NCBI GenBank assembly: GCA_943736015.1
Contig: OX031063.1
Coordinates: forward strand, 31,988,172-32,052,171
DNA: 64,000 bases
Source of the DNA: Tridacna crocea
Lineage: Eukaryota > Mollusca > Bivalvia > Cardiida > Cardiidae
Reading direction: 5' to 3'
The first letter of the stretch is position 1, and each line of letters opens with the position of its first letter. The notes beneath the pieces were generated by a model, which was not told the origin of the DNA, did no database searches, and was given only the letters and a program-made list of their open reading frames with translations. This document shows positions 2,367 through 64,000 of the stretch, one piece after another. The translations under genes and the position numbers were made by a program.

Positions 2367-5300
2367 GTTTGTGGTATTTGGAGTCATGCTCTGGCAAAAG
2401 GCGGGTTTAACTTTTTCCATAACAAGATGTTACCAGAAGCTTTTTTGAACAGTGTAGATCGAGATCCATTGCTATATTCTAGATTATGACAGTTCGCTTG
2501 ATTTTAACCCATTACCACACAATCCTTACTTTTGACGCCTCTGAGATGGAAGCCTTTTGAAAACACTGTAAGAAAGGGGGAAAATGCTGGTAACCAGCAT
2601 TTTCTCCTTTTCCCACAGTGTTTTCTACCCTTCCCAGTACAAATTTCAATTTTTCAGTCACCTTTATTTTGTTGTCTGCAAATGCTTTCAATTTGAACAA
2701 GTCTAAAATTCTGTCGTGTGGTAAAGAGTTAAAAGGAAATGTATTTTTAGCCTTTCAGGAAATACAATTTATTCTCCTTTGGTGCATTATACACATACCA
2801 AGCTAGTCATCGCATCATTACCATTTTTCCATGCCGTGGATACAAACAAAATCATGATTGTAATATCTCACCCAAATATTTCCCATAAATTACTGTCAAA
2901 CTTTTTGAACCCTTTGCCACACAAGTCCAAGTTTTAGCGGCCCTTAGAAAGAAAGCTTTTGAAAACATTGTGGGAAAAGAAGAAAATGCTGGTAACCAGG
3001 ATTTTCTTCTTTTCCCACTTTGTTATCTCCCGAATAAATAACAATTTCAATTATTTGAACCACGCCTTATTTTGTTGTCTGTGAATTCTGTCATTTTGGA
3101 CAAGTCCATAAAATAGTCATGTGCTAAAGAGTTAGGAGGTCAGTCAACGGAGTGGTCAACTTTGGCCTCGTACAGTGCATGGTAGTTTAACACAAGCTTC
3201 AATTTTTAGGGTTGCAAACTTGGAAATACATTAAATATTTTTTTAACACTTTTCCACACAATCTCGTGTTTTAATGACAAGAAGCAAGAAGGGTTTTGAA
3301 GACACTGTCATAAAAGGAGAAAATGCTGGAAACTTGCATTTTTTCAAATATAGGCTTTACTGGTTGCCTATTGCAGTGAATGAGTCGTCAGTTGATCTTT
3401 AATATTTGGACTTGAAAAAAATAGTTTTTGATAAACTCAGAGCTTTGACCAACCTACAAGAGGCAAAATGGAGAACTGACGGAAAATTCCAAGCTGTAAA
3501 ACCTACGAGCCAAACAGAGTTTAACTCATTACCAAATGACAGTATTTTAGGCTTGTCCAAATCAAAAGCTTTTCCAGACGACAATATAAAAGTGACTGAA
3601 AAATTAAAATTTGTTTTGTGAAGGGTAGGTTACCAGCATATACTCCTTTTCCCACAATGTTTTCATAAGGCTTCTATCCTAGGGTTGTAAAAACCAGGGA
3701 TTGTTTGGTAAAGGGTTAACCCTTTACCCCATAAGGCATTTCTGTGGCATATATATGACACCTTTTGATAGCATAGAAAACATTGTGGCCAAAGGTCACG
3801 AGCAATTTCACCTTTGGCCACAATGTTTTCCAAAGGCTCCTACAAGTAATGCGTAGAAATGAGTATCTATGGAGTTTTGCTATCAAAAGGTGTCATATAC
3901 ACATAAGAAACTGCTTTAGGGTCAATTAGAGATGCCATAGAAATGCCTTATGGGGTAAAGGGGATAAAGGGTTAAAGAGTTAAAACAATAAAGATGTATA
4001 ACATTTACAATGAATATACTGAAGAAGGAAAATCCATGTTGTTATAGTTTCAGACTCGGATGACGATACACTGTCAAAGAGATATGGTAGTGTTAAAGTT
4101 TCTGTGATCAAAGATGAAATGAAAAATCAACAGGTACAATAATGCTTGCATCCAGTCCTTGTGATCATGTAGTCATATATTGCAGTGATCCTGCTTTATT
4201 TCTTGTAGTGATAACCTATTTGCCCAATGCACCCTTTACTACACAATCCTGACCTTTATCAACCCTTCAAAAAGAAGCCTTTTGAAAACAATGTCGGAAA
4301 AGGAGAAAATGTTGTTTCTTACCATTTTCTCCTATTCCCACTATATTTCTAACTCATTACCAACTGCAGACGACAAAATAAAAGTGAATGAAAATTTGAA
4401 ATTTGTTGTGTGAGGACTAGAAAAAAAATTATGGGGAAAAGCAGAAAATGCTAGTTACCAGCATTATCTCCTTTTCCCACAATGTTTTCTAAAGGCTTCA
4501 TTCTCAGGGTCGTCAAAAGTAGGGACTGTGTGGTAATTGGTTAAAAGGCCTCTGTCTCAGGATCGGGATTGTGTGGTAAAGGACTACTCTTTACCGCATA
4601 AAAAGTTAACTCTTTACCAAACGACAAAATTTTGGACTAGCCCAAATTGAAAGCATTTGCAGACGACAAAATAAATGTGAATCAAAAAATGAAACTTGAT
4701 TTGGAAAGGGTAGAAAACATTGTGGGAAAAGGAGAAAATGCTGGTTACCAGCATTCCTCCTTTTCCCACAATGTTTTCAAAGGCTTACTTTCTCAGGGTC
4801 GTTAAAAGTCGGGATTGTGTGGTAAAGAGTTAATGGGCTTATACCAATAAAAAGAATTTGCAGACAATAATTGACTTTAACTAAAAGATTATTCCGTATT
4901 TGAAATTGTAAAAAAACACTGAGGGATATGGAGAAAATGCTGGTTACCATGTTTCCAATATCTTCTCTTTTAGAGTCACCAAAACTTAGGAATGTGTAGT
5001 TAAAAAATTAACCCTTTCCCAAACGACAAACTTTTTGACTAGACCAAATTGAAAGCATTTGCAGACGACAATTCAACTCTTGCTGAAAAGATGATTTCTG
5101 TCTATGATAGGGTAGAAAACATTGTGGGAAAAGGAGAAAATGCTGGTTACCAGCATTTTCTCCTTTTCCCACAATGTTTTCAAAAGGCTACTATTTCAGA
5201 CCCGTAAAAACCAGGGATTGTTTGGGAAAGGGTTAAACCTATGTTGTGGTACTGATTCATATTTTCTGGTTTCAAAAGTTCTAACAAGTACTTGTACTTA

Positions 5301-8300
5301 CAAGATGGGTACACATAATCATGGAGAACCTGAGAGATTTTTTTTTTTCGTAACATGTTACAGAACGTTGCTGATTTTGATCAACTCTTGGACATAAGCC
5401 TTTTGAAAACATTGTAGGAATGAGAAAATGCTGGTAACTATCCCATTTTTCCTTTTCTCACAATGTTTTCAAAGAAAAAATTGCACCATTTTAGTCACTT
5501 TGAAATTATTGTCATCTGCAAATGCCTTCAGTTTGGAATTTTAACAAGGCTAAAATTTTGTCATCTGGGAAAAGGTTACCACAGTAATTTCTATGTTCTT
5601 GTGTTATCTGTATCTCAGATATAGTTGTTTTTGTTAAAGGTGGATGTTATTGTGAACAGCACATCAGCCTCCCTTGACCTCAGTAAGGGAGTTGCATCAC
5701 GTGCTTTACTACAGGCAGCAGGAGATACTATCCAAAAGGAATGCAAAGATAAATACCCAAATGGAATAACTGAAACCAACATAGCTGTTACAGGTGGAGG
5801 CAACTTGCAGTGTTCAAATGTATACCATGTTAATTTGCAGAAATGGACTGGAGAGGCCAGCAAAAAGGTATTTTTGACATTGTATTTCAGGACTGGACAA
5901 AAATAAGAAAAAGGACAAACTGAAACCTCAATACTTTGTGTGCAAAGTTTAATCTTTGTTCTACAAACTATGTTTCTTGATTTCAGCTTATGACTTTCTT
6001 AACTCTTTACCACACAATCCTAACTTTTAACAACCCTGAAAAAGAACCCTTTTGAAAACACTATGGGAAAAGGAGAAAATGCTGGTAACCAGCACGTTCT
6101 CCCTTTTCCTACAATTTTTTCTATCCCTCCTAAAACAATCTTCAAAATTAGGTTCACAATTATGTTGTCATTTGGAAATGCTTTCAGTTTGGACTACTCT
6201 TAAATTTTGTTGTTTGATAAAGGTGTTAATAGTCTTAGCAATGGTCAGAGCATCTTCATTTATCTCTATAATTGTTTGTTAAGTAGGAATCAAATTCTTT
6301 TACCAAACACATTTTAGTAATACCAAGTAAAACGGCTCTTGTAAACATTAAGGAAAAAGGGAAAAACTGCTACTTTTCCAAATACAAATACACGTCCTTC
6401 ATTTCTGCCGTAACTACATATGTCTTGCTTGTCTGCAAATACATTTACATGTATGTGCTTACAATTTTGACAAGTCGAAATTTTGCCATTTTAGTGGTAC
6501 CAAATAATTACATGTAGTGATCATAATCTGGGGACCTTTATTACTGAGACAGTCAATGATTATTTACCTGTTGCAGGCACTGGAAGAACTGATTTTGAAA
6601 TGTTTAAAAGAGGTCTCCTCTGCAAACCACAGCTCTATTGCCCTCCCTGCCCTAGGAACTGGCATGTTGAGTTATGACAGAAATCTTGTGGCCAGATCTA
6701 TGTTCAAATGTGTGAAGCATTTCCAGAGTGAAAACACTAGTACAAAATTACAAGATGTCAGATTTGTTATATATCCTGCTGATACTGCTACCTATCAGGC
6801 ATTCATGAGAAGATTGAAAAGAAGTGGAGAATACCTTGGTAATTCCAACTTCAATAACAGTTTAATATTTTAATCTTTGTCAAACAGTTGTCTGTTTCAA
6901 AATCGCCGGAGAAGGAAGCTTTTGAAACAATTGTGAGAAAAGATGAAGTACTTGAAACAAGCATTTTCTCCTATACAAATACTTTCATTTAGCTTTATAA
7001 AGCCAGATTTCCTCATTTTAGCAATGTTTTCTTTGTTATCTGTCAAGGGGTCTGTTTTTCGGTGATTCCAAATATTTATTGCCTGGCATACAGTCAATAT
7101 GACACAAGATCCGAGGTTGTTTTGGTCAGTTTTTGACTTTCAGTGAAATCTTACTTGATATAATTATAGTTTGGGTGGTTTTTTTTTGCACTTTGTTTTT
7201 TAGATACATGTATATTATAATGACAATGATGATGATTTTCAAGTTTTAGATATATTTAGTTTATCTTTCAGAATGTTTGAAACTTAGCTTTAACTCTTTA
7301 CTACACAATCCCGACTTTTAACAACCCTGAGAGAGAAAACATTGTGGGAAAAGGAGAAAGTGCTGGAAACCAGCATTTTCTCCTTTTCCCACAATGATTT
7401 TTATTCTTCCCAAAACAAAGTTCCATTTTTCAGTCACATTTATTTTGTCGTCTGCAAATGCTTTTAATTTGGACCAGCCTAAAATTTTGTTGTTTGGTAA
7501 AGAGTTAAATGACAATTCAAAAAAGTCTAAATCAATTTACAGAATAGAGTTCAAATGAGTATTATGACTTCCTAAAAGTCATTAATGTTGCTCGTCACAA
7601 GAATCTGTGATGCAGGTTCTGATTTGAATTGACTTGAAAAAAGCACATGTGTAAAATAGAACCCAAATTCGTAAGAGGAGCAATTACTTGTCTGAAGCAA
7701 AGTTTTCAACAGATATTTACAGTAGGCTTGTAAATGTATGTATGAGAGTAACTGTTCCTTTATTGTCTCAATGACATAAAAAACATAATTATAGTTGACA
7801 CAAATAACTCTCTTCCAGACAAACATGTCAAACTCATCAATATCAAAAGTATCTCAGATGATAAATGTGGCACAAATGATTAAACCTGTGATTGAACATT
7901 CAGAAAACATTATGGGATTACAATAAATTGCTGATTATCAGCTTTTTTTCTTATTCCAAAAGAACTTTTTCAAAAGTCTCATGTTGCTAGCAGTATAATA
8001 CTTATAATGCAATGGTTTAGAAAAGCCTTGAGTTAATATTTATATTTCAGAAGAAAAGGCAAAATTAGTTGAAACTGCTAAAGTAGGTGAGATAGATGTT
8101 AAACTTGTCATTGGAACACTAATAAATCAAGATGTAAGTACATGTTTAATTTTTTAATCTTTGTTAACCCTGAACCCTTTACCAAACGACAAAATTTTAG
8201 ACTGATCCAAATTGAAAGCATTCGCAGACTAGAAAATGAATATGACTTGGGAATTAAAATTTGATAAAGGAAGGGTAGAAAACATTGTGGGAAAAGGGAA

Positions 8301-14300: not shown

Positions 14301-17300
14301 ACTGGTGCATAAATGACTTTGATGAGAAATGCAGTGCACAAGAACCATAATTCTTGGTTGCATATTTAAGGAGTTATTGACCTTTGTCACTTGTTCTTAT
14401 TTTAATTTTATCCAGAGCATAACTTGAAAACAACGTGAGATAGAAACACAAAACTTTGCATGTTGATAGATGACATTGAGAAGTGCATTGTACAAGAACC
14501 ATAACTTGTGGTGCTATAATTTAGGAGTTATTTCTCTTTGTTACTTTTCCTACTCAGTTTTTCATAACCCTTTACCACACGAGACAAGTTTAGACCAATC
14601 CAAATTGAAAGCATATGCAGACAACAAAATAAATGTGACTAAAGAATTAAGATTTGTTTAAGGAAGGGAAGAAAACATTGTGGGAAAAGGAGAAAATGCT
14701 GGTAGCCAGCCTGTTCTCCTTTTCCAACAATGTTTTCAAAAGGCTTTTTTCTCAGGGTCATTAAAAGTTGGGATTGTGTGGTTAAGAGTTTAGATACCAA
14801 TATTAGACTTCAGAGTTAGGCAAATTTTATTGAGGATAATGGCAATACTATGATTTGGGTTATGCCCCTTTGTTAAGTTTTTTTTTTGTCTCAAGGTTCC
14901 TTTGGAGCACAACACGAGCTGTATAAACTTCACAGCTGGATAGTTGTCTCTGAGGAAGACTGCAGTACACAAGATTGATACTCTACCTTCATTTTTTTTT
15001 TTATTGGTCTTTGTTGTTTTTCAGATTTTTTTTAAAATCTGATATCATTTGTGTTTATACCTGACAGCCATGTAAGAAAAGTGTGCCTTGAAGTTATATC
15101 ATACTTTGTATGTAGCATTGTCAGAAACTGATTCTTATATCTGGCTGTTTCAGCCTTTTGACCAAGACACAGATCTTTTATTGAGCAAGCATTTGGTGGC
15201 ATGGTATGGCCATGTCAATATGGTGCTTGTTATTATTGCAAGTATCTGCTCAACTCTGAATATTGTGAAAAAATACTGATCAGAATTTAGTCTCAGTTGA
15301 AGAATATGATGACTATGGGTCCTTAATCTTAAATTGTTAGATTGAAACACTTAACCCTTTCCCAAATGGCATATTTTATACCAGACCAAATTGAAGGATT
15401 TTGCAGATGATAAATTAACAGTTGCTAAAAAGATGATTTTTCTATATGAAAGGGTAGAAAATATTGTGGGAAAAGGAGAAAATGCTGGCTTCCAGCATTT
15501 TCTCCTTTTCCCACAATATTTTTTAAAAGGCTTCTATTCCTGGGATTGTTTGGGAAAGGGTTCAAATAGATGAGGATAAGTGCAGATTGAGAGCAGAGTG
15601 CTAAATGATGCAATCTGACCTGGAATCTCATCTGTCTTATATTGTGTCAGATATATTTGCAATACATTGTGCTAGACATTTCATCCACTTAAAACTGTCT
15701 TGAAGTCCTAAAACTGATATGAAATTGAAATATATGCAAAGGTGTTTAGTTCCTCAGGTGCACATGAAATTTATAAACAATGCTCTGTCAAGGTATCAAC
15801 CGATGTCACCTTGACTATCTGCACAGGCTGATGGGTAAAATCATTTTGGACTAAATTTGCTACATGTCCAAAGACCAGTTTACCTCATGATTCAGGTGAT
15901 TGATAGAATAGATTTTATGGGTTCATAGCCTTGTTATGACTTGTCTGGTGTAATGCATCACAGTTTTCCCAAAGCAAGGCTCATGTACCTTTTATAATGA
16001 CAAACTGAATTATAATAATCCATTCATTTAACTCTATACTAAACGATAAAATTTTGGACTAGTCTAAATTGAAAGCATTTGCAGACGACAAAATAAAAGT
16101 GACAGAAAATCAGAAATTTTTTTTGTGAAAGGTAGAAAACATTGTGGGAAAAAGGAGAAAATGCTGGTTACCAGCATTTTCTCCTTTTCCCACAATGTTT
16201 CCTAAAGGCTTCTTTCTCAGGTAAAAGTATGGATTGTGTGGTAATGGGTTAACTCTGTACCAAATGATAAAATTTTGGACTAGTCAAAATTGAAAGCACT
16301 TGGAGACAAGAGATAAACATAATGCAAAAATTGAAGTTTGTTTCCACCAGGGTAGAAAACATTGTGGAAAGAGGAGAAAATGCTGGTTACCAGCATTTTC
16401 TTCTTTTCCTACACTGTTTTCAAGAGGCATTTATCTCAGCATCGTAAAAACAAGGGATTGTTTGGTAAAGGGTTAAAACAGAAAAGTTGAAAAGACTACA
16501 CACTAGAAATTGACAGTTAAGCTAACCAGCACAGACAATTCCTTTTCACTTACATTCATATTTTTTCATGTTTTTCAGAAAATATGTTTGAGAAGCTTTC
16601 TTCCATGCAAGCAAAATATGGTGACCCAAAGTCTGTGACTCACCTTGATGATACCATGAAAGCCTCCCTCTACGATGAGGTCAATGAAGGATACTTTTTC
16701 CATGGAACAAAACAAGAAAATGTAGAAGGGGTAATCAAGAATGGGATTGACCCAAGATTAGCTCACCAACATGCTGTCTTTGGACAAGGACTTTACATGG
16801 CTGAAAGCTCTACGAAAGCTGATCAGTATACTGGTATGTGATAAATATTTTTATACCACCCAAAACTCTGTTTGGGGGGTATATAGAAGTCAGCTTTTAC
16901 CACATTATCCAAGCTTTTACCACCATGGCATGGAGAGGTTTTGAGAATATTGGTTGAAGAATAGGAAAGCTCATTACCATTTTCATCCCCTCAATGTTTT
17001 TTACCCTTTCAAAATAATTTCATGGAGGGGGTAAACTGGAATCACTATGGCTGGCTGTCTGTCTGTTCTTCTGTCTGTAGACATGAATTTGTCTGGTGAA
17101 ATACTCAAACAGTTTTTCAGGTACTGAACTAATATTTACACACAGTATTCCTATATTGTGCATGTTCAATTTTCATGACCCTACTGAGATTTGTTGCAGA
17201 ATTATCTCCCCTTGAACTTTTTTTTTCCAAATTTTACTTTTGTACCAAACCATTCTGTGACAAAGACCTGCTTTTTGACAGGGAGCTGGTGGGGGGTATG

Positions 17301-18429: not shown

Positions 18430-18648
18430 TTAACCCTTTAGCAAATGAGTTTTAGATTGGTCCAAAGTAAAAGCATTTTGCAGATGATAAATGTTGTGAA
18501 GATGATGTTTATGCAAGTGTAGAAAAGCTAATGGGAAAAGGAGAAAAAACTGGTCACCAGCATTTTATTCTTTCCCCATTAGGTGTTAGGTTTCAAAAGG
18601 CTGTTTTCTCAGGGTCGTAAAAGTCTGGAGTGTGTGTTAAAGATTTGA
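18430..18648 (-). mobile_element. MITE-A, decayed
   Basis: It starts TTAACCCTTTAGCAAATGAG. The stem is partial. Confidence 0.65.
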
Positions 18649-19606: not shown

Positions 19607-19839
19607 CTTAACTTTTTACCACACAACAAAATTTTACAATTTTACAGTTTTGTTTTGTCAAAATTGAATGCAGTTGCAGGCGGCTGATTAGGTCAAACAA
19701 TGGATGGTTGACCTGGAAAGGGTAGAAAACATTGTGGGGAAAAAAGGAAAATCCCGCAATTCTTTTAAAATCCTTTCCAGCATTTTCTCTATTTTTCCCA
19801 CATAATTTTCAATTTTTTTTCCATTCTCAAGGTCATTAA
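19607..19839 (-). mobile_element. MITE-A, decayed
   Basis: TTAACTTTTTACCACACAAC with a disrupted stem. It abuts the next MITE-B at TTAA. Confidence 0.6.
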
Positions 19840-20064
19840 CCCTTTACTCCATAGATACTCACTTCTACGCATTGCTTGTAGTAGCCTTTGGAAAACATTG
19901 TGGCAAAAGGTGAAATTGCTTGTGATGAGCAATTTGCCCTTTTGTCACAATGTTTTCTATGCTATCAAAAGGTGTCATATACACATAAGAAACAGCTTCA
20001 TTCTTGCTGTTATTTAGGGTTAATTAGAGATACCATAGAAATGCCTTATGGCGTAAATGGTTAA
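19836..20064 (-). mobile_element. MITE-B, full length
   Basis: TTAA lies at both ends. The stem has GAAATTGCTTGTGATGAGCA at its left and centre. Confidence 0.9.
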
Positions 20065-20187
20065 AAAATTGTTTGCTACAGGGTTAATTGCCTTTTGTTC
20101 CAGAGTAGATTAAGATCAGACTGCAGTTTCTGCAGTTTCTCTACCTAAATTATAACTAAGGTTTCTTCCGATTTCTACATGGATTAT

Positions 20188-22793: not shown

Positions 22794-25700
22794 CTGTAGA
22801 GAGATGAAAGAAAAACTTGTACTAGCGTTATGTAGGGATAACCTGAAATCATGCTTTACAAAGACTTAGAGACCAGGGATTCCATACCTTTCGCAGTTCC
22901 CTAAGTACTTTTGTTCTATAATTCATCCATTTTAGCAACAGTAGCTTAAACGCAAGTCCATAACACAGTGGACACTTAATGTAACCAATGTCTGAGGTTT
23001 TATGGATAATGCCTGTATCTCAGCTTGTTTCACAATTTGAAAACCGATTAATCTTGCTTTCAGTGCTTTGAATATCTTTTAATCTCTTAAAGATGCATCC
23101 GAACAACCACAGAGACAGAACAATTGTTAAAACTTGAGAGTGTGTAGAGTGACTCGGCTATGTAAACATAGACGAATAACCAATTTTAATTTTGTAAGGG
23201 ATAGAGAAACTCCGGGGATTCGTATTCATTTAAAACCTGAAACGATAAAAGCGGTTTCTTTGAAACCTTCCAAAAAATGAAATGAATTTTTTATATCTGT
23301 CGAAATTTGTGCAACCTTGCAGCTGTCATAGGCAACATTTGGCATGAACATAAAGTGTAATAATAGTGTCAGAAAACACCCGGATGAAATAGGTTAAAAA
23401 CTGACAGTAAACGAGTTGAGATGTATCTTTAAACTCGTACGGTACTTACACGTCCGTCCACAACATAGTACGCATTTTATGTAACAAACATCGGCGTCGT
23501 CATAGAAATTGCTGTGAACCAGATATGGGTAGACACAGTTGACGGTGATATTTGACGACTTCAGTCGTCTCGCCATGCTGTACATCTGCATAATCTGAAA
23601 TTTTTAATTACACATGATTTTCTCTGGGAATGTCCTTTGGAAGCACAGACGTTGCGTTGGCGAAAAACTGAAGATCAAGAGAACATTGGCCCTATGATTA
23701 TATATTGTATCACGCAGATACATTAAACCCCCTTTTGTCGAAGTAGGGCTCAATTCTATTTTTCATCATCTAGGGGTACTACATGCCTATCCCATCCATC
23801 ACCCTCTCCCTCCGTCCTTTTGGAAACTAATAGATCAACAACAATATATTTAAGAAGACTGGTACGCCCATCCTCTTGATCTGATGGACAAATGTAAAAA
23901 GATACCGAAATTTTTAGGTGCACTCATCCGTTTACGTTTGTTCTTTATCATTCTATACACCAATTTAACTCACACGATCCAACCGTCAGTCTTTCTACCA
24001 ACAGTCTCATCACCACACCTATCTACGATAAATCTCAATTACTACTCGAATAATGTAATTTCAGTATCAGACTGTAGGTTTTGTGCAGTCTGATCTTGAT
24101 CGATATTGTCCGCCAAAGGTCACCGAGTAGTGCTTTGCACCCAAAGGATTCACCACTTCACAGCTCAACAATTATATCAATAAACCACAATAGGCTTACC
24201 TGATACAGCTTCGACCGGGCATAATGTTGTAGATGAGCATAATCATCTTTAGGACCTGTGTAGTTGATCGTATTTATGTCAAAACTAGCTGTTCTGTGTG
24301 CTGGACTGGTCATAAACAGTATTCTACAGTCCGGACCCGAGTTCTTCATTACCGGTAACAACTTCGATATCATTAGAAAGTGACTTAAATAGTTGACTTG
24401 AAACACTTCTTCAAATCCGTCCTCGGTGGTGCCTGTCAGAAGTAAAGAAAGAATGGCATATAATGAATATATAATAAGCCTGCATTGTCTCCGTTTCCCC
24501 CAATGTTTTCTACCCTTCCCAATTCAAATTTCGATTTTTCAGTCACTTTTATTTTGTCTTCTACAAGTGCTTTCAATTTGGACCAGTCTAAAAAGTTTTC
24601 ATGTGGTCAAGAGTTAAGACTAAGAATGCAGTTTAGAATGGTTACTGAATACTAGCACTACCCACACTGGTATACTAATTTTCCTGCTACATACCATATT
24701 TCTCAAAACCTTCACCAGCATTACAAAACAGAACATGGATCGGTCGTCCGGTGGCCAGGAGCGTTTTGGTAAAAGTCATCACGGACTTTAATGAAGCGAG
24801 GTCGACAAGCATCAATTCTAGGGCTAGTTCGTTAGCTTGACTTATCCCTTTAGTTCCTTTGGCTTTCTCATCACGAAACTCGGCATTCATTCGAGATATT
24901 GCCTGAAAATAAAGCCGGGAATAAGTGTTATACCAAGTCAAATTAAAACCGAGTTTGATCGTGGCTAGGCGTTAAAGCCTCATATCTTTACAAAGAGACA
25001 AATGATGAGCTTTGCCCTGGGGTGGGGTGGGGGTTTAACTGTCCTAAACTCAAAGTGTTTGCAGATGACAATTTTGAATTTGATGAGAATGGCAGAAAGT
25101 TTTCCCGATAGTCTAGAAAACACTGTGAGAAGAGGAGAAATTGCTCGTTACGAGCAATTTCTCCTTTTCCCACCGTGTTTTCTAAAGACTTTTACTGCAA
25201 ACACGTAAAAACCAGGGCTTGTTTGGGAAAGGGTTAATGCATGTTCTTGATGTATGATATCAAGCAAATCATCACATAGTATGGATCCATAACACATGAA
25301 TTGTCTGTGAACAACCTACTGGAACATGAGGTAGACTATTCTTTTGTCAGGCCGAAAATTTACAAAGAGCAGAAAGAATCCAATCGGGCAGCCCATACAG
25401 ATTTTGCAGGCTGACCCGAGTCGATATATATTTTGCATATCGCATAAAGCTCCCTTTTCACAGAGCACGGTTTATTGAACGGCAATCTAAGGCCATCAGA
25501 CAACATATCTACTATACTTATACATGTCGATAATGTTGGACGAAAACCTATTCATTGAACATTGTTCTAGTTTTTCTTTGACTATAATACTTAGCTGCTC
25601 TGAATCCCTACTGAACAAATTCTCCAAAGGGTACTTCACTATATTGGTTTTATGAATGAATATATTGTTATTTGCATTATGGGCCGGTGTCCTTTTCGTA

Positions 25701-28700
25701 AATAAACTTAAGTTGACTTGAGTTGAATATGAAATAAAACAAAATTATTTAATTGGTATATAAGTAATTAGAAATACTATATAAACTATAAAACTCATAC
25801 CTGTTTGGCTCTGGTCTCCGATCGACATGCCATGATAACTGTTGCACCCATCATAGCCGTCCATTTTGCTATTTCATACCCGAGACCTGTAGCAAACAAT
25901 TACGGGTGAAAACAAAATCACTATACATGGATGTATGAGCCATGATGCCCTATGGAAAACGGGTTGAATGTATCGACCTAAGTAAGCAGGAGCTGTCTGC
26001 GCAGTCTGGCATGGCTCAAAACTTTTTTGCAATCGGTTAATTTACTACATGTATGCTGTAGGTCAGGGCCCATGTTCACAAACCATTTTACAGAACATTC
26101 TTCTTCTTATTCTCCAGAATTTTCTACATTTGTAAGTAACACAACCTCTGATTGGCTAAACCATTCCTTCGGTTTAGCCAATCAGAAGTTGTGTTACTTA
26201 CAAATTTAGAAAACCTTGGAGAATAAGACTAAGAATATTCTCAAGAATGGTTGGTGAATACGGGCCCAGGTCTACTTCATGATCCAGTGTGCTGAAATTC
26301 AAAATGGATTTTATGTGTCCAAAGTTATGTGATGAGTTGCTACGTATGACGCATCACAAAGATTGAGCCCTCTTTTGTCAAAGGATGGCTCTTGTATATG
26401 CAATAAAAATTCATATAGGGGCCTACATTTATTCAAACTGTCCCGTCTTTTGCTCTACATACTGAAAAATAAGTCATTTTCAAATATTTAGCATTATATA
26501 CTGTAGATCTACATTAAAGTAATTCTTTTTTTTTTGCATTATATAGAGGACATTTTTTTTTTTCAGTGAAATATCAAAATTTATTTCATCGAGTGGACAC
26601 CATCGGTAATATTTTCACGAGTGGCGCAGCAACTACTTTATTTCATGCTTTTAACCCTTTCTAGGAGGAACCTTATCAAAATCCAGTACAGTTCTTTTCC
26701 GTTATTCCCCTTGGCGTGCCCCTCCCGCATAGCAACGCATTACAATATTACGTCAAGAGCGAGAAATGTAAGGTAAATGACGTCATATTTCCACCTGGTT
26801 GTGAGGTACGCGCAATTAACCTAGGCAACAAGAACATGAAAATCGGTATTTCTACTGGTGGTACCAGTGTAAGATCGAGAAATATTTTCACTGCCATTTC
26901 TCGATATCCTGACGGAAATCATGAAATAATTAGCATTATAGACTATACTGTATGTTGAAGTCAGGGTTTTTTTGCAATACTACCTCGATCTTTCATGTCC
27001 ACGAATATGTGTAGAGCCGGGTGTAGCAAGCTTAACCCTTTACCATACCATCCTGAGTTTCCTCAATCCTTATTAGTCACGCTTTTGAAAACATTTGAAA
27101 ACATTGTCGGCAAAGGAGAAGATACTGTTAACCAGCATTTCCTTCTTCCCGGCGATTTTTTCTGTCCATTTGAATACAAATTCTAATATCCTAACTATAT
27201 TTCATTCGTTGTCTGCAAATGCTTTCAAAATTGACAAGTTTAAAATTCAGCCTTAAATAGCATAAAGTGTTGAGGTTAATTTCAAACTTATATTTTACAA
27301 CTTTGATTACTTCCTCGAAGAGTGAGGACCAGGATCAGACAGCAAAAAAGTACAATTTTATATTTCAATCTAATTTGCCCGATTTTTGTGACGTACATGT
27401 ACATGTATTTGCTGGCTAAATCGACCTTGAAATATTTTTGGTCAATTATATTGACTTGATGTTTATCTGGGTGAATCACTTTCTACTCTACTGGTGTATT
27501 TTGTGCCTCAGTGAGTTCTAATTAACTGATGGTGAAATGCTGTGAAACCTGTGGTCCGTATTTAGAAACCATTAATAGGAACAATTTTTGTCTTATTCTT
27601 CGAGAATTTACGTATTTTAAAGCCACACAACTTCTGATAGGCTCAACTAAATGGTTTAGCCAATTAGAAATTGTGTTGGTTTCGAATTTTGAAAATCTTA
27701 CAGAATAATATTTTTTATTTGGTCGTTGTATCCCTGGTGACGATGCTGGGGTCCCTTAACCCTTTTCTCCATAGGTATTCGTTTCTACGCATTGCTCATA
27801 AGAGCCTTTGGAAAACATTGTGGCAAAAGGTGAAATTGCTCGTGACGAGCAATTTCACCTTTTGTCACAATGTTTTCTATGCTATCAAAAGGAGTCATAT
27901 ACCCATAAAAAACGGCTTCATCCTTGCTGTTATTTAGGGTCAATTAGAGATACCCTAGAAATGCCTTATGGGGTAAAGGGTTAAGACTTTGGTCGTGAAA
28001 CAACCGGTCTGCAGGTGGTACTTAACATCAATTCTAAACTCTAGAGTTTGTTCTAAAGTTTGCTCACATTCTAGGTCAAAATGCCTGAATTAATCACATC
28101 ACATGGTTTGTCTTCAGATTTAGGATTAGAGTTAAATTTTGTCAGGTTTGTATAAGACCTCTCCAGGATCAACATTGTCCTATATGTTGACAATGCGGAC
28201 ATTGGAGGTAAATTAACGGTCCAATCGGCTATAGAGAAGAGAAATGAAACAATAACAAAGTTGGTAAATAACAAAAATTACAATAACAAAGTTCATGTTT
28301 TTGCTTGTCGGTATACATGTAGGCTACATTATATACATCTATGTGGCATGCTCTGGCAAAAAATGGCTTATTGCACTGTTGAGAGATATATCAAGCAAAC
28401 CAAAAAAGTCATCAGATAATTAAGAACCAATAAATCCATATTTTTTTTTAAACCAACTCAATTTTGAAGTAGAATGGTCCTTGGAACACGTAGCCAAAGG
28501 CAAAAAGTTTCAACTCGGATCAGCCTGCGCGAATTGCGCAGGCTGATCCGAGTCGATACTTTTTGTAGATGCATTAAATCTCCTTTTCCTAAGGCATGAA
28601 CCATGTGTAATCTGTAAAGACGAATGACACTTACCGGAATTGGCCCCTGTCACTAACACAGTCCGTTCCTTCGGCAAGCTTGTTATAGGGAACGATCTGC

Positions 28701-44800: not shown

Positions 44801-45825
44801 ATCCAAACTTTAAATGACACTGAGTAAGAAGCCTGGTTGGACTGCATGAATTGCACAGGCTGACCGGGGTCAAAACTTATCAATTATATGATAATTTCTG
44901 TATGAAAACTGGTCATTCTACCTTGTTATATAACCATTTTTGAACCGTCAACTTAAATTGACCCACACTGCACTATCGTTTATTTGTTTTCATCCTCTAT
45001 TGTCCCTTATCGGGTAGCTGGTCACATATTCATTACATTGTAAGTTCATGTGCCCAGTCCAGTAGCTTGATGGGTAAGATATAGGATTCCTAATCCAGGC
45101 TCTGTATTCACCAACCATTCATAAGAAGATTCTTATTCTTTAGAATTTTCTAAATTTGAAAGTAACAGCAAGTTATGTTACTTTGAAATTTAGAATATTT
45201 TGAAGAATAAGACTAACAGTGTTCTGAAGAATGGTGGTGAATACAGACCTAGGAATCTCTAGTTTGAAATCCAGCCTGGCAAAATTGTCTCAACATACAG
45301 CTTTTTGTAAAAATGCTTAACCCTTTACCACACAATCTCGACTTTAAACACCCCTGCGAAAGAAGCCTTCTGAAAACATTGTGGGAAAAGGACAAAATGC
45401 TGGTTACCAGCATTTTGTCCTTTTCCCACAATGTTTTCTTCCCTTCCTAAAACATATTTTAATTCTTTAGTCACAGTCATTTTGTCATCTGCAAATACTT
45501 TGAATTTGGACCAGTCTAAGAATTTTGTTATTTGGTAAAGGGTTAAAGAACAATCTTTCTCCAGATTTTGAGTAACTATTGTCATGTTATTACTTTGATA
45601 GTTAAAACTTTTATAGATGAGGCAGATGCAGTGTATCAGTATCAATTTCCACTCTTTTTCTCTCTTCTACAGCTTGATGCTGCGTCCCCGGAGAAAATAA
45701 CCCTGATGTCACGAGATGAGCAGAATGTCTTAGTTGTCAGCTATGCTGAGTTAAAGCAATGCTTTGAAAATGCATTCACAGATGTGTTGAATAGTGCTCA
45801 TTCTCGTGGAAGTGCTATTTCATAG
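29685..45825 (+). CDS. PAN3: PAN3, PAN2-PAN3 deadenylation complex subunit (16 exons, 810 aa)
   Basis: Sixteen exons close in frame (listed separately). In order: an N-terminal CCCH zinc finger (C14-X8-C23-X5-C29-X3-H33, CRYFMSTGSCTYGDDCQFLH); a low-complexity Ser/Asn/Pro/Gln region (about 40-320) with a PAM2-like TNPFVSEFVP at 216-225; a pseudokinase domain from about 395 (TCYKALNTKDGQTYCLRRIH; MYHPNIVQLREVFTTKAFGD; FVYDFYPMAETLL; LDPSKIIIYNKSR); and the C-terminal coiled-coil/knob domain ([40 protein letters not shown]). By family, PAN3 dimers bind poly(A)-binding protein and RNA and recruit the PAN2 nuclease for cytoplasmic poly(A) shortening. Human PAN3 is 887 aa, so this is near full length. 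An in-frame TAA at 29661 supports the ATG at 29685. Confidence 0.97.
29884..30835. other. PAN3 intron 1, no repeat recognised
   Basis: AT-rich; no MITE copy is seen in this 950-bp intron. Confidence 0.6.
30836..30936 (+). CDS. PAN3: PAN3 exon 2
   Basis: CTTCAG|GCATGC to TTCTCG|GTAATT (101 nt, phase 1 to 0); encodes QYFSATFSGGEGNLQEFKPF. Confidence 0.9.
30950..31150. repeat. dispersed repeat E
   Basis: GTGTAGACCAAGATCCAACT and GTAAGATACTCTAACCAAAA match other E copies. Confidence 0.45.
31279..31390 (-). mobile_element. MITE-A left arm only
   Basis: TTAACCCTTTACCAAACGAC through GCAGATGACAACTTCAGTGT; stem and right arm are missing. Confidence 0.7.
31970..32180 (-). repeat. tRNA-derived SINE
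   Basis: Read on the minus strand, 32175-32100 resembles a tRNA with an A-box-like TGGTCGTGAGGTAGAGC and B-box GAGTTCGATACC. It is followed by a non-tRNA body and an AAATAAATATG tail. Stem mismatches and the attached body argue against a functional tRNA gene. Confidence 0.65.
32219..32411 (+). mobile_element. MITE-A, decayed
   Basis: TTTAGCCCTTTGCCAAACCA, the short stem centre AGCTGGTACCAGC, and CTGTCTGCAAATGCATTTAA. Confidence 0.65.
32936..33196. mobile_element. MITE-A/MITE-B mosaic with a 33-bp local duplication
   Basis: The left arm resembles MITE-B (CCTCCATATATACTCATT), the stem centre is MITE-B-like (GAAATTGCTCAAATGAGCAA), and the right arm is MITE-A (GTTGTTGTCTGCAGCTTCTT). GTGAAGAAAAAAGCTTTAGG occurs twice, 33 bp apart. 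Confidence 0.65.
33330..33512 (+). CDS. PAN3: PAN3 exon 3
   Basis: TTATTTAG|AGACAG to CAACAG|GTAATT (183 nt, phase 0 to 0). Low complexity, Ser/Asn/Gln/Met-rich. Confidence 0.9.
34000..34226 (-). mobile_element. MITE-A, full length, stem decayed
   Basis: TTAA lies at both ends; several stem mismatches. Confidence 0.8.
34560..34690. repeat. dispersed repeat E
   Basis: ATCAAGATCAGACAGCACAA and GTCTGATCTTGGATCTACAC. Confidence 0.5.
34772..34930 (+). CDS. PAN3: PAN3 exon 4
   Basis: TTCTGCAG|GTTCCA to GCAAAG|GTAGGT (159 nt, phase 0 to 0); encodes ILSMMNGQMPPNMKQFIG and DFSALNLSVPQ. Confidence 0.93.
35464..35690 (-). mobile_element. MITE-A, full length
   Basis: TTAA lies at both ends; a short deletion in the outer left stem (GAAAACGTGGGG). 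Confidence 0.9.
35741..35944 (+). repeat. tandem array of ~50-bp units, each with a 3' splice site
   Basis: Four AATATTTCAG|GGAACA acceptor-like junctions end at 35793, 35844, 35894 and 35944 (51, 50 and 50 bp apart), with a diverged fifth unit start at 35741. Only the last is the acceptor of PAN3 exon 5. Each unit carries a version of the exon's first ~25 bases. Confidence 0.9.
35945..36289 (+). CDS. PAN3: PAN3 exon 5, PAM2-like motif
   Basis: TTTCAG|GGAACA to GGCATA|GTAAGT (345 nt, phase 0 to 0). It opens GTNPFVSEFVP, resembling the PABP-binding PAM2 consensus LNPxAxEFVP with L and A changed. A Ser/Asn/Pro-rich stretch and TTYFYNAEDFTPQ follow. Confidence 0.95.
36760..36922 (+). CDS. PAN3: PAN3 exon 6
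   Basis: TTTTCAG|TCTCTT to AATGGAG|GTAAGC (163 nt, phase 0 to 1); encodes MPQFFMPDELKMEILTKNS. Confidence 0.95.
37127..37285 (+). CDS. PAN3: PAN3 exon 7, start of pseudokinase domain
   Basis: GTTCAG|ATATTC to TTCATG|GTGAGT (159 nt, phase 1 to 1); encodes YRNLFPLEPP and TCYKALNTKDGQTYCLRRIH. Confidence 0.97.
37286..38411. other. PAN3 intron 7, nothing recognised
   Basis: 1.1 kb of AT-rich DNA without a recognisable MITE copy. Confidence 0.5.
38412..38528 (+). CDS. PAN3: PAN3 exon 8
   Basis: TCGCCAG|GCTTTA to ATCATT|GTGAGT (117 nt, phase 1 to 1); encodes FRLVNTKCMSLVDMWKKMYH. Confidence 0.97.
39076..39210 (+). CDS. PAN3: PAN3 exon 9
   Basis: TTTTCAG|CTATTG to GGAAAAG|GTACTT (135 nt, phase 1 to 1); encodes IVFVYDFYPMAETLLTKHF. 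Confidence 0.97.
39291..39520 (+). mobile_element. MITE-A, CCCTTTCCCA subtype
   Basis: CTAACCCTTTCCCAAATAAT to TTTAGGAAAGGGTTAA; the stem has a few mismatches. Confidence 0.85.
39680..39769 (-). mobile_element. MITE-A right half
   Basis: GTTACCAGCATTTTCTCCTT to AATGGTAAAGGGTTGA. A further left-stem fragment follows at 39772-39830. Confidence 0.6.
39984..40140 (+). CDS. PAN3: PAN3 exon 10
   Basis: TTTTCAG|GTTCAT to GTCAAG|GTAAAT (157 nt, phase 1 to 2); encodes IWSYIVQLSSALRAIHAAGL and LDPSKIIIYNKS. Confidence 0.97.
40160..40388 (-). mobile_element. MITE-A, full length, 20 bp after an exon
   Basis: TTAA lies at both ends; it begins just 20 bp downstream of the exon 10 donor. The right stem arm has TTCTTC while the left has GGAG. 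Confidence 0.92.
40945..41157 (-). mobile_element. MITE-A, decayed
   Basis: TACTGTGGGAAAAGGAGGTA with partner CTGCTTTTTCCACAAAGT. Confidence 0.55.
41335..41422 (+). CDS. PAN3: PAN3 exon 11
   Basis: TTTGAAG|GTTGAG to TATCAG|GTTAGT (88 nt, phase 2 to 0); encodes LRLNCCGIFDVLTFDNSQSN. Confidence 0.93.
41507..41790 (-). mobile_element. MITE-A plus a second right-arm fragment
   Basis: The first copy (41507-41705) has the stem GGAGAAAATGCTGGTTATCA. A second right arm (TTTTCAAAAAAAGCCTTCTT ... GTTTGGCAAAGGGCTAG) follows at once. Confidence 0.65.
42115..42254 (+). CDS. PAN3: PAN3 exon 12
   Basis: TTTTCAG|CAAGAA to ATTCT|GTAAGT (140 nt, phase 0 to 2); encodes VSLGKVALALACYSVMAI. Confidence 0.97.
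42380..42485. repeat. dispersed repeat E
   Basis: ATTGGACTGCATGGTTTGTG and CAGTCTGATCATGATATATG. Confidence 0.45.
42982..43111 (+). CDS. PAN3: PAN3 exon 13
   Basis: ACTACAG|GTATTT to TCAAAG|GTAAGA (130 nt, phase 2 to 0); encodes INDIMPMIGARFYTQLDSAQ. Confidence 0.97.
43737..43801 (+). CDS. PAN3: PAN3 exon 14
   Basis: TTTTCAG|GAAGTG to GCCAGA|GTAAGT (65 nt, phase 0 to 2); encodes NGRLFKILCKLGVINERP. Confidence 0.96.
43826..44046 (+). mobile_element. MITE-A, decayed
   Basis: TAAACTCTTTACCCAACAAT, a broken stem, and GTTGTCAGCAAATGCATTCA. Confidence 0.65.
44552..44690 (+). CDS. PAN3: PAN3 exon 15
   Basis: TTGACTAG|GTTTAA to AATAAG|GTAAGT (139 nt, phase 2 to 0); encodes the conserved [20 protein letters not shown]. 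Confidence 0.98.
44836..44940. repeat. dispersed repeat F
   Basis: TTGCACAGGCTGACCGGGGT followed by CAAAACTTATCAATTATATG. Confidence 0.5.
45101..45250. mobile_element. foldback element C, shorter copy
   Basis: AAATTTGAAAGTAACA and TGTTACTTTGAAATTT are inverted; GTATTCACCAACCATTC pairs with GAATGGTGGTGAATAC. Confidence 0.8.
45317..45546 (+). mobile_element. MITE-A, full length, paired stem change
   Basis: TTAA lies at both ends. The stem has GGACAAAATG on the left and CATTTTGTCC on the right; both arms differ from the consensus at the matching position, keeping the pairing perfect. Confidence 0.95.
45673..45825 (+). CDS. PAN3: PAN3 exon 16 (terminal)
   Basis: TTCTACAG|CTTGAT; encodes [20 protein letters not shown] and ends AIS TAG. 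Confidence 0.97.
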   Translation, partial: [50 protein letters not shown]

Positions 45826-48358: not shown

Positions 48359-48567
48359 CAGTGGCAGAGCACCATATAAGAGGGAGTAATCATATGCTAA
48401 AGAATTTTTTTCTCCTCAAAACCCTATGTTGTGGGTACTCATTAGAATCATCTTGATGAGACGATTCTAATGAGTACCCACAATATAGGGTTTAGCAGAG
48501 AATGATTTATATTTCAAATTTTGAAATCAAAATCATACTCCATCTAGAGCTCTGCATTGGTGTGCTA
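48359..48567. mobile_element. foldback element D, best copy
   Basis: The core is a hairpin (48420-48493): ACCCTATGTTGTGGGTACTC and AATGAGTACCCACAATATAG with AGAATC/GATTCT inside. The outer arms GTGGCAGAGCACCATATAAG and GAGCTCTGCATTGG are inverted too. Confidence 0.8.
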
Positions 48568-48798: not shown

Positions 48799-49021
48799 AT
48801 CTTTACACAACAAAATTTTTGGCTAGTCCAAATTGAAAACATAAATTTTGCAGATGACAAAACTAATGAAACTGAAAAAATAAAACTTGTTGTTTGAAGG
48901 TTAGAAAATTTTGGAAAAAGGAGAAAATACTGGTTATCAGTATTTTCTTGTTTACTACAATACTTTCAAAAGCTGTCATTCTTTGGGTTGTTAAATTTGG
49001 GATTTTGTGGTAAAGGGATAA
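48799..49021 (-). mobile_element. MITE-A, decayed arms, paired stem change
   Basis: The inner stem reads ATACTG/CAGTAT where most copies have ATGCTG/CAGCAT. Confidence 0.8.
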
Positions 49022-49197: not shown

Positions 49198-49648
49198 CTC
49201 AACTCTTTACCGCACAGTCCAGACTTTTAGTGACCTTAACCCATTACCAAACGACAAAATTTTAGACTGGTCCAAATTGAAAGCATTTAAAGACGAGAAA
49301 ATAAAAGTGACTGAAAATTTGAAATTTATTTTGTGAAGGATAGAAAACATTGTGGGAAAAGGAGAAAATGCTGGTTACCAGCATTTTCTCCTTTTTCCAC
49401 AATGTTTTCTAAAGGCTTCTTTCTCAAGGGCGTCAAAAGTAGGGATTGTGTGGTAATGGGTTAAATGAAGGGTATTGTGAACTTTATAGGAAAAGGAGAA
49501 AATGCTGGTTACCAGCATTTTCTCCTTTTCCTACAATGTTTTCAACTCTACAAAAGACAAATTTCATCTTTTTAGTTGCATTTAATTTGTCTGCAGTTGA
49601 TTTGAATTCGGACAAGTCTTTAATCTTGTCATTTGATAAAGAGTTGAT
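49198..49648 (+). mobile_element. MITE-A interrupted by a nested MITE-A
   Basis: The left arm (49198-49239, CTCTTTACCGCACAGTCCAG) and the remainder (49461-49648, stem and GTTGATTTGAATTCGGACAA arm) flank a complete inserted copy. Confidence 0.85.
49236..49464 (-). mobile_element. MITE-A, full length, nested
   Basis: A full copy with an excellent stem, bordered by TTAA on both sides within the older element. Confidence 0.95.
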
Positions 49649-49839: not shown

Positions 49840-50067
49840 TTAACCCTTTACCCCATAAGGCATTTTTATGGTATCTGTAATTGACCCTAAATTACAGCAA
49901 GGATGAAGCCATTTCTTATGTGTATATGACACCTTTTGAAAGCATAGAAAACATTGTGGCAAAAGGTGAAATTGCTCATCACAGCAATTTCACCTTTTGC
50001 CACAATGTTTTCCAAAGGCTCCTAGAAGCAGTGTGTAGCAATGAGTATCTATGGAGTAAAGGGTTAA
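49840..50067 (+). mobile_element. MITE-B, full length
   Basis: TTAA lies at both ends. The stem GTGGCAAAAGGTGAAATTGC is matched exactly on the other arm, with centre TCATCACA. Confidence 0.93.
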
Positions 50068-57997: not shown

Positions 57998-58212
57998 TTA
58001 ACTGTACTAGACAGCCAAATTTTAGGGTATACCAAATTGAATGCACTTGCAGAAGACCTTATAAATGTGGCTGAAAAATTAAAGCATATTGTGAGAAGGG
58101 TAGAAAACCTAGTAGGAAAAGGAGAAAATTAATTTCTCCTTTTCCTACAATGTTTTCAAGAGTTTTCTTTTCCAGGGTTTTCAGCGCTTGTGATTGTGTG
58201 GTAAAGAATTAA
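57998..58212 (-). mobile_element. MITE-A with shortened but still perfect stem
   Basis: The inner TGCTGG...CCAGCA segment is absent, leaving GTAGGAAAAGGAGAAA/TTTCTCCTTTTCCTAC around ATTAA. GTAGG/CCTAC is a paired change from GTGGG/CCCAC. Confidence 0.88.
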
Positions 58213-58348
58213 ATTGGAGAGATAGATATATTTAGAACAGTGAAATAAGGGCAGATAAAGCAGTTTCAAGATTTTAAAATGTTAGACATCTAAGACTTTT
58301 ATTGATATTGTAGATTTATATCATAAAAGAAACTCTGGACCCACACTA

Positions 58349-58576
58349 TTAACCCTTTACCCCATAAGGCAATTCTATGGTATTTCTAATTGACCCTTAA
58401 TAACAGCAAGGATGAAGCTGTTTCTTATGTGTATATGACACCTTTTGATAGCATAGAAAACATTGTGGCAAATGGTGAAATTGCTCGTTACAATCAATTT
58501 CACCTTTTGCTACAATGTTTTCCAAAGGCTCCTTCAAGCAATGTGTAGAAATGAGTATCTGTGGAGTAAAGGGTTA
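58349..58576 (+). mobile_element. MITE-B, full length
   Basis: TTAA lies at both ends. The stem centre is GAAATTGCTCGTTACAATCA, with mismatches in the inner stem. Confidence 0.92.
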
Positions 58577-58883
58577 AAAGAAGCAAGTTATGTCACTCTT
58601 TGTGGCAAGATACATGAATTATTAAAAAAAAAAACATTCCATATATAATATATATATGAGATGTGCTCTGGCTAAAGGGGGTTAACTATAATTATCTCTG
58701 TGATGCATTTTATCCCGTTTTCGTCAAAAGCTCACCCTTTCAGTTTTGAAAGCCTCACCGGATAAAGTTTATCCATGTCGGCACCAACCATATATTCTCT
58801 ATATACCAAGTCATCATAATTATGGATACACAAAATACATTTTGTGTAACAACCAACTAAATCCTGGGATGGAATCATTCTTT

Positions 58884-59425: not shown

Positions 59426-59442
59426 AAACAGCATTATGATAC

Positions 59443-60560: not shown

Positions 60561-60561
60561 C

Positions 60562-61112: not shown

Positions 61113-61198
61113 AATATTAGAATTTGACAGAAAATCTTAAAAAAAAGGCTTTTTCTAATTCAATGTGAGCCTTTGACTTTTGCCAAACCAGTTAACTA

Positions 61199-62231: not shown

Positions 62232-62425
62232 TAACTCTTTCCCAAACTACTAAATTTTAAACTTGTCAAAATTGAAACCATCTGCAGATGGTAAAATAAA
62301 ATGTGACCCAAGAAATGAATTCTGTTTTCATGATGGGTAGAAAGCATTTTTTTTTTTCTTTTTCCCAAAATGCTTTCAAAAGCTTTTTTCTCAGGGTTGC
62401 TAAAAGTCTGAATTGTGTTGCAAGT
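62232..62425 (-). mobile_element. MITE-A, left stem arm replaced by a T-run
   Basis: TTAACTCTTTCCCAAACTAC, GAAACCATCTGCAGATGGTA, then TTTTTTTTTTTCTTTTTCCC. Confidence 0.65.
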
Positions 62426-62719
62426 GGTCGAGTGATTTTTTTTATATAAACCTTCAAAGTCAAGAAATGTATCATACAACTCTGAATTATGTTAAAATGG
62501 AATGTTCAACAGGATAAAATTCATAATAGCAATTTATCCCTTTGATGAGCCACTTTATGATATCCTTAACAGTGGATGCATAATAGGAATTTGTGGCACC
62601 AATGCTAGGATTTTTTCTTTGGCTGAATTAAGAATATTGTGGGAAAATGGTTATGCAGGTTATCAGCATGTTCCCCTTTTCCCACATTCTTTTCAAAAGA
62701 CTTCCAAATAAGGGATGCT

Positions 62720-62910
62720 GAATGTCAGGCTGACCTGGGCCAAAACTTTTCCCTATTGGTAAATTTTATGTTTAACAAAGGACCAATCTACTTTATGATT
62801 AAGAAGATTATCTGAAAAAGTGGCTCTTATGGATCAATAAACCTAGTGATGATTTGGGCTACAATCAAATATATTTAAGTCCCCTTTTGCCAGCTAATGG
62901 CTCATATTTA
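62720..62910. repeat. dispersed repeat F
   Basis: GTCAGGCTGACCTGGGCCAA at the start and CCCCTTTTGCCAGCTAATGG near the end. Confidence 0.55.
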
Positions 62911-63140
62911 GCCCTTTACCACACATTCCTGACTTTTAACGACTCTGGGAATACAGCCTTTTGAAAACATTGCGGGAAAAGGAGAAAATGCGGGCTGGTA
63001 ACCAGCATTTTCTCCTTTTCTCACAATGTTTTCTACCCTTTCTAAATCAAATTTCAATTTTTGATTCACATTTATTTTGTCATCTGCAAATGCTTCCAAT
63101 CTGGACTTGTCCAAAATTTTGTCATTTGGTAAAGAGTTAA
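62908..63140 (+). mobile_element. MITE-A, full length
   Basis: TTAGCCCTTTACCACACATT to TTTGGTAAAGAGTTAA. A 4-nt insertion (GGGC) sits in the left stem. Confidence 0.9.
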
Positions 63141-63407
63141 GAAAGAATAAATTATTGTTATCAGTGTCAGAGTTGTCTGATGAAAATTTGCCCACAGGTA
63201 CTGAGATAAACAATGTAGGAAGAAAAACTTCATATCAAAATGACAATAAATGGAGTTTACTTCATCAGCTTGTGGTTAATATGGGGAAATATTTGCTGAA
63301 AAAGGGAAAGGTATGCAAAAATAACGAGTGCCATAAGTCACAAGTTATTTCCGTGGACCTTTCCCATTTGAGGCAAATATTTTCTGATATTAACCATATC
63401 AAGTGAC
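63141..63407 (+). pseudogene. zinc-ribbon-like protein relic, copy 2
   Basis: The frame reads LSVSELSDENLPTGTEINNV, KWSLLHQLVVNMGKYLLKKG, KVCKNNECHKSQVISVDLSH and LRQIFSDINHIK then stop. It aligns with the 54.1-kb relic (GEYLPKKEKVC / GKYLLKKGKVC). The first Cys pair of copy 1 is lost. The frame carries on upstream to the MITE-A that ends at 63140. Confidence 0.4.
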
Positions 63408-63589
63408 ACTCTATTACCATTAAAGTATATTATCAAAAAAATCTTGGTATATAAGCACTTGATGTGAAAAAGTAATAATGATCAATATACATAAATAAGT
63501 GAAGCAATATGCACTACAAAAATAAATCTTTGCCATCTGTTTATACATATCAGTGCAGAACTAGCGCATTACTAACAATCTGATCTTAA

Positions 63590-63809
63590 CCCTTTATCAG
63601 ACAAACAAACTTTAGACTTGTTTAACTCGGAAGCATTTCCATACAATAAAATGGAAGTGGCTCAACTTAGGGATGAGTCTCTTACCTGGACAAAAAAATA
63701 ATGTGGGAAAAGAAGAAAATGCTGGTTACCAGCATTTTCTTCTTTTCCCACATTGTTTTCACAATCTTTCTTTCTCAAGCTTGTTCAAACTCTCAACTGT
63801 ATGGTAAAT
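63590..63809 (-). mobile_element. MITE-A relative, first unit of a 203-bp tandem pair
   Basis: TTAACCCTTTATCAGACAAA, arm GAAGCATTTCCATACAATAA, and stem GTGGGAAAAGAAGAAAATGC paired with CATTTTCTTCTTTTCCCAC. The duplicated unit is about 63607-63809. Confidence 0.88.
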
Positions 63810-64000
63810 AAACTTTAGACTTGTTTAAATCAGAAGCATTTCCATACAATAAAATGGAAGTGGCTCAACTTAGGGATGAGTCTCTTACCTGGACAAAAAA
63901 TAATGTGGGAAAAGAAGAAAATGCTGGTTACCAGCATTTTCTTCTTTTCCCACATTGTTTTCACAATCTTTCTATCTCGAGCTTGTTCAAACTCTCAACT
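63810..64000 (-). mobile_element. MITE-A relative, second tandem unit, cut by the window edge
   Basis: Nearly identical to 63607-63797 at an offset of 203 bp, including the stem variant. It runs off the window. Confidence 0.92.

Follow-up and report, generated by a model that had tools for sequence, protein, structure and literature searches.

Template switching between the arms of palindromes is established in bacteria. Switching between the arms of imperfect palindromes has also been described in yeast and in the evolution of RNA genes (PMC8604942, PMC8794818, PMC3820800), with homogenisation of the arms and inversion of the spacer among the products described in yeast (PMC8604942); multiple compensatory changes and loop inversions have been reported as enriched, whereas isolated compensatory changes have not (PMC8794818). 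We investigated a family of short repeated elements, here called family A, in 64,000 nucleotides of the bivalve Tridacna crocea (assembly GCA_943736015.1, contig OX031063.1, positions 31,988,172 to 32,052,171; this whole stretch is referred to as the window, and positions are counted from its first letter). The elements have a central palindrome in which complementary changes at paired positions exceed the number expected by chance. In quasipalindrome correction, the arms of an inverted repeat converge in one step, several compensatory changes can occur together, and the loop or spacer can be inverted (PMC8604942, PMC8794818, PMC3820800); the changes examined here may be of this kind. The known cases, as far as these accounts describe them, were placed on a phylogeny or selected with a reporter, whereas the events considered here are inferred statistically from copies of a mobile element and are undated.

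Two groups of mobile elements are also comparable. By description, the nearest published element found would be the CMITE group of the coral Acropora (PMC2872659). Like the elements studied here, CMITEs are small, have TTAA target sites, occur in tandem copies, and comprise families with different ends that have a conserved internal region (75 bases in CMITEs) in common; their ends, mostly of the CCCTTT type, are similar. They are about 100 bp long compared with 226–235 bp here, the likeness being one of description, and the published account as available makes no mention of a palindrome in the internal region. In DINE-1 of Drosophila, as here, the sequence of a hairpin stem varies, and compensatory mutations have been suggested to maintain it (PMC2374699); in contrast to the present case, that stem has 7–11 nucleotides near the 3' end, the comparison is between species, and the element's status as a miniature inverted-repeat transposable element (MITE) or a Helitron is debated. 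This one sentence on DINE-1 was all that the literature matches listed contained on paired or template-switch changes in MITEs, in a search that left most subscription journals outside and does not amount to proof of absence.

A profile search of the window with a 226-bp model of the family A element yielded 116 matches (including those of the B type described below), whose union covers 19,980 bases, or about 20 kb. Being short, present in many copies and of uniform length, family A is MITE-like. Of the 39 matches that extend to both ends of the model, 32 have TTAA at the 5' end, 26 at the 3' end and 24 at both. The bases following TTAA fit CC[C/T]T at 8 of the 32 5' ends (7 CCCT, 1 CCTT) and 10 of the 26 3' ends (CCCT), with CTCT and CCCA also common. 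The elements are predicted to be non-autonomous TTAA-type (piggyBac-like) MITEs, with TTAA as the putative target site. The centre of the element is a 33-bp palindrome around a single base, which gives a 3-nucleotide loop when folded; as single-stranded DNA the perfect copy at 5009–5234 folds with −37.2 kcal/mol (z-score −16.6), the loop being the central TTA. Divergence along the element is lowest in the palindrome (7–14% in steps of 8 columns, 62 copies) and highest in the left spacer directly before it (26–34%, same copies and steps). Overall divergence is 11.3% in the stem compared with 22.6% in the element arms.

The initial annotation of this DNA proposed that many copies differ from the consensus at both matching stem positions at once, more often than independent mutation would allow, and all six examples cited for it are present in the sequence. 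A bare tally of such cases was rejected as evidence, as about half are expected at mutable pairs. We compared the paired changes with several chance models. Of the 116 matches, 87 could be read at 20 or more of the 33 stem pairs; removal of a tandem duplicate (63810–63994) and of 8 matches showing B-type states in the stem left 78 A copies with 2455 pair cells. These stems have 276 changes in the left palindrome arm and 269 in the right, with 63 doubles, of which 37 are complementary. When each left position was re-paired with a wrong right partner matched for base, 44.4 doubles were expected, 18.6 ± 3.4 of them complementary, and 37 was reached in none of 2000 runs; with partners matched for base and rate the corresponding values were 46.4 and 18.4 ± 3.2, and 37 was reached in none of 5000. 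The re-pairing null carries the same shared ancestry as the data because each copy stays whole. Under simulated independence, with rates set for each column and each copy and spectra for each column, 52.7 doubles and 22.4 ± 4.6 complementary doubles were expected, and 3 of 1000 simulations reached 37. Partners obtained by sliding one arm gave 28–48 doubles and 3–14 complementary doubles, the slid columns being unmatched for base. Non-complementary doubles show no excess (26 compared with about 30 expected).

The excess is also found when the data are reduced in other ways. There are 27 distinct types of complementary change compared with 15.5 expected (1 of 1000 runs under simulated independence). 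In the 30 stems of the 78 that are free of insertions and deletions, 14 of 18 doubles are complementary compared with 5.2 expected (4 of 1000). A separate pair counter applied to these 30 stems (28 distinct) found 14 cells changed on both sides compared with 4.5 after shuffling (0 of 500), with the pair types and the covariation score peaking in the true register; when five B-type stems were added the values became 29 and 7.4, a signal largely due to inheritance within B. On a tree of the element arms (70 copies, about 155 arm columns; a weak tree), 17 complementary events fall on single branches compared with 9.0 ± 2.4 expected (5 of 5000).

Complementary doubles are thus nearly twice as frequent as expected by chance, and their excess is real but moderate. 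It amounts to about 15–19 of the 37 cells, or an estimated 3% or so of stem substitutions. The part of the proposal that stands is that both-arm changes go beyond independent mutation, as the excess survives control for site rate, spectrum, copy age and, through re-pairing, ancestry; chance nonetheless predicts 18–22 of the 37. The accompanying statement that the stems are kept perfect was an overstatement, because complementary doubles are confined to 27 of 78 copies, perfect stems number 5 among the 42 complete ones, and most stem changes are one-sided. The low divergence of 8 near-perfect full-length stems (1.9%, arms 21.9%) was rejected as proof, these copies having been picked by their stem.

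The kind of change differs from chance mainly in transversions. Complementary transversions number 18 compared with 6.0–6.8 expected, and no G·U route exists for these, whereas complementary transitions are near chance (19 compared with 14.5). Single transitions left a G·U pair in 113 cases and an A·C pair in 103 (p = 0.54). Selection on a folded RNA, the other option offered by the initial annotation, was rejected on this lack of a G·U preference and on the absence of any Rfam match at the gathering score over the window. As a test of the source elements the G·U comparison is weak, single changes being probably mostly decay after insertion.

The base at the centre of the loop was compared in 75 A copies, and is absent in 3 further copies. 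T is the most frequent (56 copies), followed by A (13), C (4) and G (2). The change from T to A (13 of 75) is about fivefold more frequent than at other stem T positions (3.4%; p = 1.5e-6), and the counts of C and G are close to those expected. This is the highest such rate within the stem; 11 of 143 T or A columns compared exceed it in T to A or A to T change, all in the element arms, at up to 34%. Of ten centre-A copies with enough arm sequence, nine are nearest to a centre-T copy, and their mutual closeness is no greater than in random sets. Inversion of the loop TTA gives TAA, which is the observed change; with a single central base, inversion and point mutation are indistinguishable in any one copy.

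These results lead us to favour hairpin-templated correction (template switching of the quasipalindrome type) as the best reading, with about an even chance of being right. When the DNA is single-stranded, most likely during replication or repair, the palindrome arms would fold back on each other, and a polymerase may occasionally use one arm as the template for part of the other. A change in one arm would thereby be erased or else mirrored as a paired change, and a switch running through the apex would invert the loop. Such templating would add to ordinary one-sided decay, which makes most of the changes. Some events probably took place in source elements and spread as these multiplied, which would explain how families A and B came to differ. 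Template switching fits best: it predicts an excess confined to complementary changes, with transversions included, as seen in the copy counts, and an inversion of the loop, with which the change at the loop centre agrees. Also in its favour are the 11 complementary doubles compared with about 3 expected in the 44 copies with at most 7 stem changes, and the three paired changes within four pairs at 18431–18643. The arm-to-arm templating suggested at the outset thus has the best fit, including a loop change in the direction of inversion, as an addition to stems in which most changes are one-sided decay. That these signs match template switching better than compensation, shared founders or chance is a judgement we hold with middling confidence.

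Several observations weigh against this reading. When copies were shuffled in bins of eight with similar divergence, so that part of the true pairing was retained, the outcome was less extreme than with the other nulls (55.9 doubles, 25.1 ± 4.2 complementary, maximum 41 in 1000 runs). The pair counter slid by +2 gave 15 both-side cells compared with 14 in the true register, and the arm tree shows an excess of all double events (38 compared with 25.4), beyond the complementary ones. The excess does not grow with copy age: complementary doubles number 11 compared with 3.0 expected in 44 copies with at most 7 stem changes, 12 compared with 7.0 in those with 8–12, and 14 compared with 11.3 in those with at least 13. 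It may therefore stem from the source elements and not continue after insertion. Paired changes at most 3 positions apart, which conversion of tracts would predict, are weakly enriched (4 of 9 copies compared with 1.9, p = 0.09). The paired cases are mostly isolated, and in ribosomal RNA genes isolated compensatory changes were described as not enriched over simulation and uninformative about mechanism (PMC8794818). Centre A and paired change are unassociated: complementary doubles occur in 3 of the 13 copies with centre A and in 24 of the remaining 65. In the terminal repeats, which lie about 200 bp from each other, there are 11 complementary doubles compared with 4.3 ± 2.0 expected, as three types. 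The stem, half as diverged as the arms, points to a constraint on source elements, which unbiased arm-to-arm correction does not explain. Founders outside the window are possible.

Of the three terminal-repeat types, one is seen a single time; the others, CCCATT (7 copies) and CCCTTTCCC (3 copies), stand at both ends and resemble subfamilies, as if with differing recognition sequences. Terminal repeats with paired variants therefore indicate that a paired change can be kept at the source level, perhaps through recognition by a transposase. The matched end variants occur as CATT in the copies starting at 18090, 21739, 40162, 49237, 56134, 56531 and 59445, and as CTTTCCC in those starting at 5009, 15352 and 39293.

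These terminal variants are what a source-level constraint would give, and compensatory evolution in the source elements is the alternative that survives best, though we consider it somewhat unlikely. Under this scenario, pairing of the palindrome (as a DNA cruciform, a transposase-bound structure or RNA) aids mobility, lineages in which pairing was restored multiply, and their copies then decay neutrally. The lower divergence of the stem is consistent with it, as are an excess strongest in copies with few stem changes and the existence of families with different arms that have the palindrome in common and differ in it by paired changes; the coral CMITE families likewise have a conserved internal region in common (PMC2872659). 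The equal tolerance of G·U and A·C makes the RNA form unlikely, within the limit already given for single changes, while the largest excess is in transversions, which have no wobble intermediate, and the excess of A at the loop centre is unpredicted.

Families A and B bear on arm-to-arm templating and on a second alternative. Family B combines different arms with a related palindrome, which looks as if it had passed between element families. Between the A consensus and the B stem at 27811–27877 there are four paired transversions, at pairs 14, 21, 26 and 31, and a one-sided change at pair 13. In six B copies the two-sided B state is present at pair 14 in 6 of 6, at pair 21 in 3 of 5 readable, at pair 26 in 5 of 5 readable and at pair 31 in 2 of 6; the B copies lacking it have undergone one-sided change since. 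Two intermediate copies (the last two rows of Table 1) have no one-sided B state at any of these four pairs. The path from A to B looks stepwise and paired, a further sign in favour of templating; an apex-crossing conversion tract from B into A gives the same pattern.

Such tracts are part of the alternative in which each paired change arose once in a source and spread by transposition or by ectopic conversion covering the apex. Within the 78 copies, nine of the 27 paired types recur, apex-centred conversion from B would leave just such copies as the two with A arms and B-type inner stems, and the window presumably holds a small part of the copies in the genome. Copies with the same paired type are not close by their arms, with ranks from 9 to 66 of 67–69; a rank was obtainable for 9 of the 11 pairs. 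The arms within the window thus do not bear out the possibility, raised in the initial annotation, that a single founder lies behind all copies having a given pair; the founder could lie outside the window. Counting each type once still leaves 27 compared with 15.5, and the first origin of each paired change still needs explanation. We regard this scenario as unlikely. Independent mutation alone, in which mutable G-C pairs in identical contexts on the two arms are hit twice, mostly by C to T and G to A, predicts the 18–22 chance doubles and the near-expected transitions but is very improbable given that 37 was reached by 3 of 1000 simulations and by none of 5000 matched re-pairings and that transversions number 18 compared with 6–7.

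Returning to template switching, we speculate that the palindrome could be a self-editing sequence. Ongoing switching in inserted copies as well as sources would mirror or erase mutations, flip the loop and carry the palindrome stepwise from A to B while the arms were exchanged, and a dense MITE population would serve as a naturally replicated test of quasipalindrome correction in the germ line of an animal. This wider proposal is possible but doubtful. If the excess is genome-wide and arises after insertion, template switching in the germ line of an animal could be measured directly for its rate, the length of its tracts and how often it inverts the loop, and paired changes in a hairpin would carry the warning that they alone do not prove selection on RNA structure.

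The copies with paired changes and the B-type copies are listed in Table 1. The clearest clustered case has three complementary changes within four pairs. The supposed symmetric loss of the inner stem at 58112–58148 was rejected as a paired event, the sequence being most simply explained by a single deletion across the apex.

Table 1. Positions of family A and B copies discussed in the text, with stem pairs numbered as in the text
Group	Position	Strand	Features
Family A	2506..2731	-	Palindrome 2559-2625; pair 8 T-A to C-G, likewise in 1929-2150 and 25038-25235
Family A	2908..3134	-	Palindrome 2961-3027; pair 20 G-C to A-T, likewise in 63694-63760, 32224-32408 and 63810-63994
Family A	5009..5234	+	Perfect consensus palindrome 5115-5181; CCCTTTCCC at each end
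Family A	15352..15562	+	Palindrome 15457-15523; both-arm change at pair 6 C-G to T-A, unique to copy
Family A	18431..18643	+	Three complementary changes in a four-pair span (pairs 7, 9, 10); best clustered case
Family A	45319..45545	-	Palindrome 45372-45438; pair 22 G-C to C-G, unique to copy; loop centre T to A
Family A	48805..49017	+	Pair 28 G-C to A-T (48927-48943), unique to copy
Family A	49464..49645	-	Pair 12 G-C to A-T; loop centre A
Family A	58002..58207	+	Palindrome 58103-58157; pair 12 G-C to A-T on both arms, likewise in 49464-49645; apex deletion
Family A	63587..63808	+	Palindrome 63694-63760; both-arm changes at pairs 8 and 20; neighbour 63810-63994 with identical stem
Family B (other arms, TTAA ends)	27755..27989	+	Palindrome 27811-27877
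Family B	1675..1903	+	
Family B	19836..20065	+	
Family B	49840..50067	-	
Family B	58347..58577	-	
Family B, partial	3711..3874	-	Extra paired change A-T to C-G at pair 15
A-type arms (by score)	25038..25235	+	Two-sided B state at pairs 26 and 31 only
A-type arms (by score)	33008..33162	-	Two-sided B state at pairs 21, 26 and 31; pair 14 mismatched

Some copies lie end to end with one TTAA in common (16029–16250 with 16250–16474, and 10374–10492 with 10493–10716), comparable to the arrays of coral CMITEs. The adjoining copies 63587–63808 and 63810–63994 have no TTAA at their joint and look like a tandem duplicate. No transposase family was found in 12 window frames scanned against Pfam, a Pfam scan of two long window frames yielded no families, a PDB search with the frame at 12928 gave no matches, and part of the stem used as an exact pattern had no match in either a viral contig or a genome contig collection. 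Other imperfect palindromes in the window, with short loops and arms of about 30–110 bp, are found at 26053–26280, 45131–45212, 48410–48502, 11694–11774 and 28501–28565, the first two being alike by eye.

The window also contains gene fragments. A frame resembling short-chain dehydrogenases (24158–24523, minus strand) falls below the Pfam cut-off. Exons of a macro-domain/PARP gene, with macro-domain and PARP segments, lie between 5625 and 16838. A PAN3 region extends over 35837–44783, with a weak match at 35837–36361 (E = 0.0017) and a pseudokinase exon at 44487–44783 (Pfam PF18101, E = 4.3e-23). The PAN3, macro-domain and PARP fragments identify the window as animal DNA.

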